DNA of 64,000 nucleotides from Methanofollis aquaemaris (GTDB lineage: Archaea > Halobacteriota > Methanomicrobia > Methanomicrobiales > Methanofollaceae): assembly GCF_017357525.1 (NCBI RefSeq), contig NZ_CP036172.1, forward strand, positions 2,516,561-2,580,560, read 5' to 3'. The notes beneath the pieces were generated by a model, which searched no databases, was not told the origin of the DNA, and saw nothing but the letters and a program-made list of their open reading frames with translations. Each line of letters begins with the position of its first letter. The stretch's first letter is position 1. Below, in pieces: positions 61,908 through 64,000 of this stretch. The translations under genes and the position numbers were made by a program.

Positions 61908-61967
61908 GAGAGAGTGAGGTGGAGAGGCCCCGCACCAATGTGCTCAGTATCTATGTTCACGAGACCC

Positions 61968-61984
61968 TTTCTTCTTCCTTTTTT
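61968..61984 (+). terminator. T-rich terminator of the mutSL operon
   Basis: TTTCTTCTTCCTTTTTT about 60 bases after the mutL stop and convergent with the unknown gene at 62007. Confidence 0.65.
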
Positions 61985-62006
61985 CGTCAATTTCCACTGT
62001 CTCTTT

Positions 62007-63782
62007 TCAAATGGGGTTCTGAACATCTCCGTATCTGGCTATCGCATAGGGAAATGTATCATCAAGAAGGGAACGGTTTCGATATAACAAAAATCTATAA
62101 TTCGATCCTGTGCTGTCATCGTCGTATTCATTAGATGTGTAATACCCATCGATGAGATCTTGAGTCATTGGTGAGATTTCAATCTCTGAAAACGCTTTCA
62201 CATCGTCGAAATCCTCTCGCAATAATGTTCGATTGATTTCCTCGATCAGAAACGTAGTAAATGCGGACGTCGGTGCCTTGATGTTATCATACCGCAGAAG
62301 CAAGTTTTGCATCCGGTTCGATAACTTACCTCGGATATGATTTGATACCCGGCTCTTTTCAGCCAATAAAGTTAGCAATAAAGTGATATCCTTGATTTCA
62401 GTCTTCTTTATAAAGAACGGCGACACCTGCCTCACTCTGACTTTTACCCAAAATTTGTTTTGCTGAGGGTTTTTTTCTTCGATTGTTGGAATAATTGAAT
62501 GATACTTTCTCTTTGACGTGGAATACCCCATATCATAATAAATGTCATACCCACAGGTCAGGCCGATCCTGAGAAGCGCATCTTCCTGGCTGTATTCGCC
62601 GTCTATCGTCGGCCGGTCAGAAATCTCTCTGAGATCAAAGGAATCAACATTTTTATTTCCTGGAATGGTCAGGGTACGGGCCATATCGGAGATGGCGAGA
62701 CTGATCAGACGCATGAAAAGGAGATTACTGAATTTTTCGTCTTTTTTGTGAGTAAATCCATGGTATATCTGGAACGGTTCCCATGTGCCCAAAACAAATT
62801 CTGCCAACGCCGCCGGTGAAGATTGGATCAGTGCCAGGATAGGGAGGATCAGGCGTTCCTGTTCGATAGTTTTGAATTGATCATCGAGAATGCCAGGGAA
62901 ATGTGTAATGGCATCTATAGAATTTGGGCTATAAGATGGGGGTGAATTATTTTCTTTTTGTATTCTTTCCAGTTTTTCCTTTCTGGGCATACCTTCGGGA
63001 AAAATAGGAATACTATGTTGAGCGAAGAACGGGGTAGAGAAAACCCAATCAGACGCGTTTCTAGTCTTATATCCTGGATGTTTTTCTATTTCCCTGATCT
63101 CATCAAGAATCATCTTTTCAAAATCCGCATCATTTCCCTCTTTTTTATCATCTAATATGGTGAGGACACTTGGGATTTCATCCGGGGCGAAATCGAAAAT
63201 ATCATGTTTGCTTATGATCGACACCTGCTTCTCAAATAATCTCGTCCTGACCAGATCTTCAGTGATGATATTTCTGCAATATGAGTGACTCAACATTTCG
63301 ACTCTTTCATAGGCATCACAATTTTGCATCAGGAAAAGAAGGACTGATTTAAAGGTTTCAAAATCACTTTTTAAAAAATACTGAGTTGTTTCCTGGAATT
63401 TTTTCTGGGTCCGCTTTTTTTCAACTCGTTCAAATATTCCCAGATCAACCAATTTTCTGCACGTCTTCCCCGCTGTTGGAATTGTAACGGCGTGGATATC
63501 CTTCACATAACCATCATCATATCTAGAACGGTAACTGCCCTCTTCCTCCGGATTGACATATTTATGCGTGGTCAGACGCGCAACGATATCGTCGGGATAG
63601 GAATAGAAATGGTTTGGAGCCAGATATAGTGGGTCGAATCCTTTCATCCTGCGGCGAGGATTGTGTTTGGCATTCTCAATTGCGAAACCCTCCTGGATAA
63701 TGAATAATTTTAAAATAATCCATTCCTTTTCTGTTAGTTTTGGTACCTGAGTCATTTTAAAAATCTCAAACGGTTTTATCAC
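62007..63782 (-). CDS. Unknown 591-residue protein with possible N-terminal winged helix
   Basis: A large soluble protein, much more AT-rich than the rest of the right-hand window. Residues from about 110 to 160 (TAGKTCRKLVDLGIFERVEK and then TTQYFLKSDFETF) read like a winged-helix recognition helix and wing. The remaining part is mixed helix without known motifs; acidic, with several tryptophan-poor, lysine-rich stretches. GTG at 63782 is probably the leaderless start, 25 bases from a TATATATA box; ATG at 63755 is an alternative. It diverges from the viperin-like gene over 110 bases. Function not recognised. Confidence 0.7.
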   Translation of the reverse strand: MIKPFEIFKMTQVPKLTEKEWIILKLFIIQEGFAIENAKHNPRRRMKGFDPLYLAPNHFYSYPDDIVARLTTHKYVNPEEEGSYRSRYDDGYVKDIHAVTIPTAGKTCRKLVDLGIFERVEKKRTQKKFQETTQYFLKSDFETFKSVLLFLMQNCDAYERVEMLSHSYCRNIITEDLVRTRLFEKQVSIISKHDIFDFAPDEIPSVLTILDDKKEGNDADFEKMILDEIREIEKHPGYKTRNASDWVFSTPFFAQHSIPIFPEGMPRKEKLERIQKENNSPPSYSPNSIDAITHFPGILDDQFKTIEQERLILPILALIQSSPAALAEFVLGTWEPFQIYHGFTHKKDEKFSNLLFMRLISLAISDMARTLTIPGNKNVDSFDLREISDRPTIDGEYSQEDALLRIGLTCGYDIYYDMGYSTSKRKYHSIIPTIEEKNPQQNKFWVKVRVRQVSPFFIKKTEIKDITLLLTLLAEKSRVSNHIRGKLSNRMQNLLLRYDNIKAPTSAFTTFLIEEINRTLLREDFDDVKAFSEIEISPMTQDLIDGYYTSNEYDDDSTGSNYRFLLYRNRSLLDDTFPYAIARYGDVQNPI

Positions 63783-63892
63783 TCATTGTCAGTTGATTTG
63801 TGGTATATATATTTTCACATTGGGTAAAGCATTGGTTCAAGTTCTTTACGGCGACATTTTGCCTATTAGTTCCTAGATTTAACGTATTATTC
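63783..63892. promoter_or_regulatory. Divergent promoter region of the unknown gene and radical SAM gene
   Basis: 110 AT-rich bases. TATATATATT at 63804-63813 serves as TATA box for the minus-strand gene; the plus-strand gene has an AT-rich AACGTATTAT close to its ATG at 63893, with a weaker TATA-like sequence upstream. The shared promoter suggests linked expression. Confidence 0.45.
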
Positions 63893-64000
63893 ATGCCCCA
63901 ACTGCTTCCCAGATCAGCGAACTGGCATATGACCTCTGCATGCAACTACCACTGCAAGTTTTGCTGTATGCAAAAACTCACTGGCGACCTCACTTCAATG
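63893..64000 (+). CDS. Radical SAM protein, viperin-like (start only, cut by window edge)
   Basis: 36 codons from ATG to the window edge. The residues SANWHMTSACNYHCKFCCMQ contain the CxxxCxxC motif that binds the 4Fe-4S cluster of radical SAM enzymes. The context (N)-WH-T-x-x-CNY-x-C-(K)-FC is like that of prokaryotic viperins, which turn nucleoside triphosphates into chain-terminating 3'-deoxy-3',4'-didehydro forms in antiviral defence. Other radical SAM enzymes share the cluster motif, so only the downstream part can settle it. It is divergent from the unknown gene at 62007. Confidence 0.7.
   Translation, partial: MPQLLPRSANWHMTSACNYHCKFCCMQKLTGDLTSM

Follow-up and report, generated by a model that had tools for sequence, protein, structure and literature searches.

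Viperins (SAND) form a family of established antiviral action, whose product, a 3'-deoxy-3',4'-didehydro nucleotide, stops viral polymerases; to our knowledge, how the activation of prokaryotic viperins is controlled is an open question. The 64,000-nucleotide stretch of the Methanofollis aquaemaris genome analysed here (the window; G000:C1:2516561-2580560, part of a closed 2.75-Mb genome) ends inside a radical SAM gene that a sequence-only reading had called viperin-like, and back to back with it stands a gene of 591 codons, which we call the partner. What is this partner, and does it serve the viperin beside which it lies?

The viperin reading was based on the motif CNYHCKFC in the final plus-strand codons of the window (SANWHMTSACNYHCKFCCMQK). 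The window edge falls after codon 36 of the gene, whose product begins with MPQLLPRSANWHMTSACNYHCKFCCMQK; because the genome around the window is closed, the gene could be read through to its stop. The resulting protein of 276 amino acids scores 231.8 bits (residues 7-255) against NF038283, the NCBIfam equivalog for prokaryotic viperins, which has a curated cut-off of 180 bits, and 1.3e-68 against the PADLOC pVip model. In the PDB its closest sequences belong to viperins and to viperin-like enzymes, with alignments that run from residue 5 to the end of the protein; the one with 9dfu reaches residue 276 and VYxW terminates both proteins, as in a full-length enzyme including the C-terminal extension. 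The radical SAM cluster CxxxCxxC lies in its viperin context, SANWHMTSACNYHCKFC and KINFVGGEP in the translation (pattern: NWHxTxxCNYxCxFC and KINFxGGEP), and it is this SANWHMTSACNYHCKFC-bearing protein that aligns with the solved viperin-like structures. The viperin models were far ahead of any other, which ruled out a cofactor maturase. Judged by its sequence, the right-hand gene is a true full-length member of the viperin family, in line with the first reading, and presumably acts against viruses. It has no nucleotide kinase adjacent or fused to it, its neighbours being the partner, a 42-aa open reading frame and an FMN-reductase-like gene. It thus resembles the viperins of the known pVip (SAND) systems, both the kinase-associated ones and the archaeal viperin-TPR type (PMC12988326), in being full length, and differs from them in that neither a kinase gene nor a TPR gene adjoins it; it has instead a partner resembling a winged helix-turn-helix (wHTH) protein, and a tiny hydrophilic protein.

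Table 1. Coordinates of the features at the locus, and loci at which a partner gene is accompanied by a tiny gene.
Feature	Coordinates	Strand	Details and basis
Partner gene	62007..63782	-	591 aa from GTG; 582 aa from likelier ATG at 63755
Shared divergent promoter region	63783..63892	.	110 bp (137 bp if partner start = 63755)
Viperin gene, first 36 codons	63893..64000	+	ORF, profile and PDB evidence
Viperin gene, full	63893 to window-equivalent 64723 = G000:C1:2580453-2581283	+	276 aa
Tiny NPNN-type gene	window-equivalent 64858-64986	+	42 aa; ORF
Left part of AT-rich ~3.2-kb cassette	61913..64000	.	Synteny, GC; right end about window-equivalent 65095-65100
Partner loci with tiny gene	window-equivalent 64858-64986; L041, L042, L044-L049, L052, L074, L077, L078, L080, L083, L193, L195		

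The two genes diverge from a common promoter region, as had been read from the window (Table 1), and alignment of the partner with its homologues favours the ATG over the GTG as its start. Both genes are AT-richer than the mutSL side (GC 0.41 for the partner and 0.48 for the viperin, versus 0.69), again as noted before. They belong, with the tiny gene, to a cassette with a GC content of 0.43 versus 0.69 on the mutL side, and an IS200/IS605-type tnpA-tnpB-like pair lies to the right of it (L002:14325-15920, window-equivalent 72325-73920). Synteny with two sister species, G003 and G005 (MutL identity 92% and 96%), breaks just past mutL, and the segment from mutL to the next shared gene measures 3.2 kb here, 269 bp in G003 and about 774 bp in G005. 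No terminal repeats of at least 8 bases were found at the cassette edges. The cassette is absent from the sister species at this place, and its AT-rich composition and patchy spread make horizontal acquisition here likelier than loss elsewhere.

An insert at a variable place beside mutL, differing between sister species, might simply bring chance neighbours together in a defence-rich or insertion-prone site. We disfavour this explanation as very improbable: homologues of the partner adjoin viperin genes repeatedly, at seven loci in two conserved arrangements. Five are divergent pairs in the Methanomicrobiales (the window, L041, L042, and two copies in G114, L044 and L045), and two are operons of the Methanosarcinales type (METP1, L052, and G317, L074), where the partner gene overlaps the viperin start. 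Both families are rare and mostly single-copy per genome, and the seven immediate adjacencies span several genera and two orders. The viperin tree sets the partner-paired viperins in separate places and rejects a single origin of the pairing (AU p = 6e-4), and the viperin-linked members are not united on the partner tree either; the pairing thus either arose repeatedly or was lost repeatedly. The partnership is real and not exclusive. Both checks that could have overturned the sequence-only reading (another radical SAM family, no recurrent viperin neighbours) turned out in its favour, but the word “dedicated”, which the sequence-only reading had attached to the partner, proved too strong: a viperin is present at only five of the 12 partner-family loci of the Methanomicrobiales, so that the viperin is not the sole thing the family serves, and the tiny gene is present at all 12, while some members stand beside NYN-LOTUS genes. 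These members belong to the Methanosarcinales, and the NYN and OST-HTH/LOTUS genes next to them are confirmed by Pfam (L075:6446-7231; L076:6190-7101, overlapping; L080:9868-10656). Elsewhere, a partner-family gene lies near AAA-like and PAPS-reductase/DndC-like genes, a possible defence neighbourhood (L078:1506-8944).

The partner had been described as having no recognised family and a possible winged helix. The first statement stands: neither Pfam, NCBIfam, PADLOC nor PDB sequences gave a match to the protein, 16 members of the family gave no meaningful match in Pfam or PADLOC, and the family alignment, used as a profile against the PDB, found nothing either. Its homologues share about 20-32% identity, and the named relatives from the order include Methanoculleus chikugoensis, M. 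sediminis and Methanogenium marinum; no relatives of the partner were found in viral contigs (searched with the family profile), phages or plasmids. The partner is an undescribed family, absent from every library searched. As for the winged helix, the AlphaFold2 model (pLDDT 73, pTM 0.79) folds the first ~137 residues into three helices and a two-strand wing (H18-40, H63-72, H101-113, E117-124, E131-137), the remainder being mainly helical and without known match. The top Foldseek matches in the PDB are mostly wHTH DNA-binding proteins (RTP, AbfR2, MarR, Fur, PadR), with a probability of up to 0.95 and a best E of 0.3, none reaching E <= 0.001 and therefore not significant. Model and kind of match together make an N-terminal winged helix probable, and the partner may well bind DNA. 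Conservation extends over the C-terminal ~450 residues (ILPILALIxxSPxALxEFLxGxW); the C-terminal half contains no known ligand domain, and the invariant residues of the family include no catalytic or metal-binding signature. The partner was also considered as a CARF or WYL/BrxR regulator, and both were ruled out: neither domain has a Pfam match in the 16 members, and CARF does not appear among the best 50 fold matches listed. The BrxR-type WYL regulators form a winged-helix family whose genes lie beside various defence systems (PMC9122601). The partner shares with them this concept; it differs in the missing WYL domain (16 members), in its occurrence, so far only in archaeal methanogens, and in being linked mainly to the tiny gene and viperin.

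What stands beside other viperins? Among 29 other viperin loci from the order and the phylum, a gene of ~220-330 aa adjoins the viperin in 25, divergently in 23, and the representatives examined combine a CARF domain with a winged helix at the C-terminus. Most of the members scanned gave sub-cut-off matches to CARF-type Pfam families, and the model of one such neighbour (pLDDT 86) matches Csa3 (6wxq, E 4e-7; 2wte, E 8e-7) as well as other CARF proteins. The two families exclude each other: a CARF gene is found at none of the seven partner-viperin loci and a partner gene immediately adjacent at none of the 29 others (Fisher p = 4e-5, relatedness uncorrected). In other words, the partner family occupies the CARF slot beside viperin. 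In the viperin tree of the Methanomicrobiales, the partner-paired clade is nested among CARF-paired viperins, which makes replacement the simplest history. The partner resembles the Csa3-like regulators in its divergent position by the viperin, its probable winged helix and the frequent SMP-like tiny genes; it differs in that it has no CARF by sequence or fold, has its predicted wHTH in N-terminal and not in C-terminal position, and is about twice as long. In G359, both families occur a few kilobases apart; one viperin there adjoins the CARF gene, and the partner-family member adjoins a pair of tiny genes and a NYN-LOTUS gene.

Several other features of the comparison loci should be mentioned. 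At several of them (L099-L119, L121-L124), a TPR-containing gene of ~1000 aa or a large unknown gene also lies downstream. At L120 (3349-4865 and 5048-5884), the viperin has no CARF gene, and directly upstream of it lie an SMP-like tiny gene and a different wHTH-like gene of 473 aa, possibly another regulator swap. G359 (L122, L125, L127) has several viperin genes, two of them in one cluster with kinase-like and HAD 5'-nucleotidase-like genes, and a 172-aa viperin fragment that overlaps a response-regulator gene.

The tiny proteins are an extra component that gene annotation usually misses. The tiny gene of the window locus encodes a 42-aa protein of NPNN type, starts 135 bp past the viperin stop and has a GGAGG ribosome-binding site. 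A gene for such a hydrophilic protein of ~40 aa lies within 1.1 kb of the partner at all 12 family loci of the Methanomicrobiales, ten times of an SMP-like type and twice of the NPNN type (the window and G003), and at 18 of the 20 partner-family loci checked overall; the two without it, L075 and L076, each have a NYN-LOTUS gene. The SMP-like protein (~41 aa, RIQSxADRTGTNQGFKxRAQSAA) has 30 copies in 24 of the 232 genomes of the order, and by coordinate comparison 24 of these copies are at viperin or partner loci, ten at partner loci and the others at CARF-viperin loci, mostly on the outer side of the CARF gene. Following the tiny genes also led to a partner gene that had escaped notice (G154) and to a distant one (G208), and so provided an independent check. 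Copies of the NPNN type, found in 37 genomes, lie mostly away from viperin or partner loci, which ties this type only weakly to them; as a universal component it is unsupported, and the SMP-like type alone is strongly tied. Outside viperin loci, SMP-like genes were seen by inspection beside a ~270-300-aa ribbon-helix-helix-like gene (L194, L196, L197).

The name SMP-like refers to the pattern RIQSxADxxG...RAQSAA, shared with the SMP (PF04927) and LEA-like proteins. One member reached 15.5 bits (E 0.022) against a Pfam cut-off of 22 and another had no match; these proteins differ from SMP in staying below the cut-off, in their length of only ~40 aa and in their link to viperin and partner loci. 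The tiny protein of the window locus has a different sequence, the NPNN type, and no match in Pfam.

That the tiny gene accompanies the partner at every locus of the order, and the viperin does so at only five, would suit an autonomous two-gene unit of partner and tiny protein (toxin-antitoxin-like, or a regulator with a stress protein) in which the viperin is optional cargo inserted between the two, the more so as, where viperin is missing, tiny gene and partner gene usually stand head-to-head about 90-340 bp apart. We regard such a unit as unlikely, since the viperin link recurs independently, also as overlapping operons, and since SMP-like genes accompany CARF-viperin loci that have no partner, which ties the tiny protein to viperin loci too. 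Nor does the tiny protein show any hydrophobic or toxin-like sequence.

The reading that we favour, with somewhat better than even confidence, is that the cassette is a horizontally acquired viperin immunity system in which the partner acts as a ligand- or infection-responsive wHTH transcription regulator. The partner would bind the common promoter region of 110-137 bp and control the operon of viperin and tiny protein as well as its own gene, doing the job of the Csa3-like CARF regulator found beside most methanogen viperins, and the viperin would make the 3'-deoxy-3',4'-didehydro nucleotide that halts viral polymerases. The CARF position, the probable winged helix, the common promoter region and the lack of a catalytic signature point to a regulator of viperin and tiny protein as the most likely role; which way the control runs, what signal it answers and what part the tiny protein plays are our own extrapolations. 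On the promoter side, a TATATATA-like stretch lies near 63801-63812. Counting against this reading are the best wHTH fold match of only E 0.3, the C-terminal half lacking a ligand domain, the seven of 12 family loci of the order that have no viperin, and the missing operator repeat: a scan of the five divergent intergenic regions found no shared or strong palindromes.

A further point against it, the co-transcription of partner and viperin at the two Methanosarcinales loci (L052, L074), also suits a partner acting at the protein level, as co-effector or sensor with viperin (e.g., on the viperin product or viral DNA), with its wHTH serving target recognition. At 591 aa the partner is longer than one would expect of a simple regulator, and the conserved C-terminal region would fit such a role. 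We nevertheless hold a co-effector to be quite improbable, because the invariant residues carry no catalytic or metal-binding signature and because the partner occurs without viperin and sits in the slot of a CARF-wHTH regulator.

Returning to the regulator, a broader and more tentative proposal, to which we give rather less than even credence, is that partner and tiny protein form a switch that senses infection and is portable between antiviral effectors (viperin, NYN-LOTUS ribonucleases). This switch would repeatedly have replaced the CARF regulators, sensors of cyclic nucleotides, beside archaeal viperins and may answer a different signal of infection. The viperin itself is known; the libraries and literature searched contain no description of the partner family, of its mutual exclusion with CARF or of the tiny proteins, and no link between CARF or Csa3 and viperin was found there either, the key viperin-evolution and CARF-classification papers (the Makarova CARF classification, Bernheim 2021 and Shomar 2024) lying outside that scope.

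These observations suggest that methanogen viperins stand nearly always beside a wHTH protein, usually a CARF sensor and here an unannotated family. The pairing predicts which gene senses infection, and a single archaeal order offers a comparison of CARF-controlled with non-CARF-controlled viperins. A partner that replaces the CARF-type sensor-regulator suggests that viperin immunity can be controlled in a new manner.
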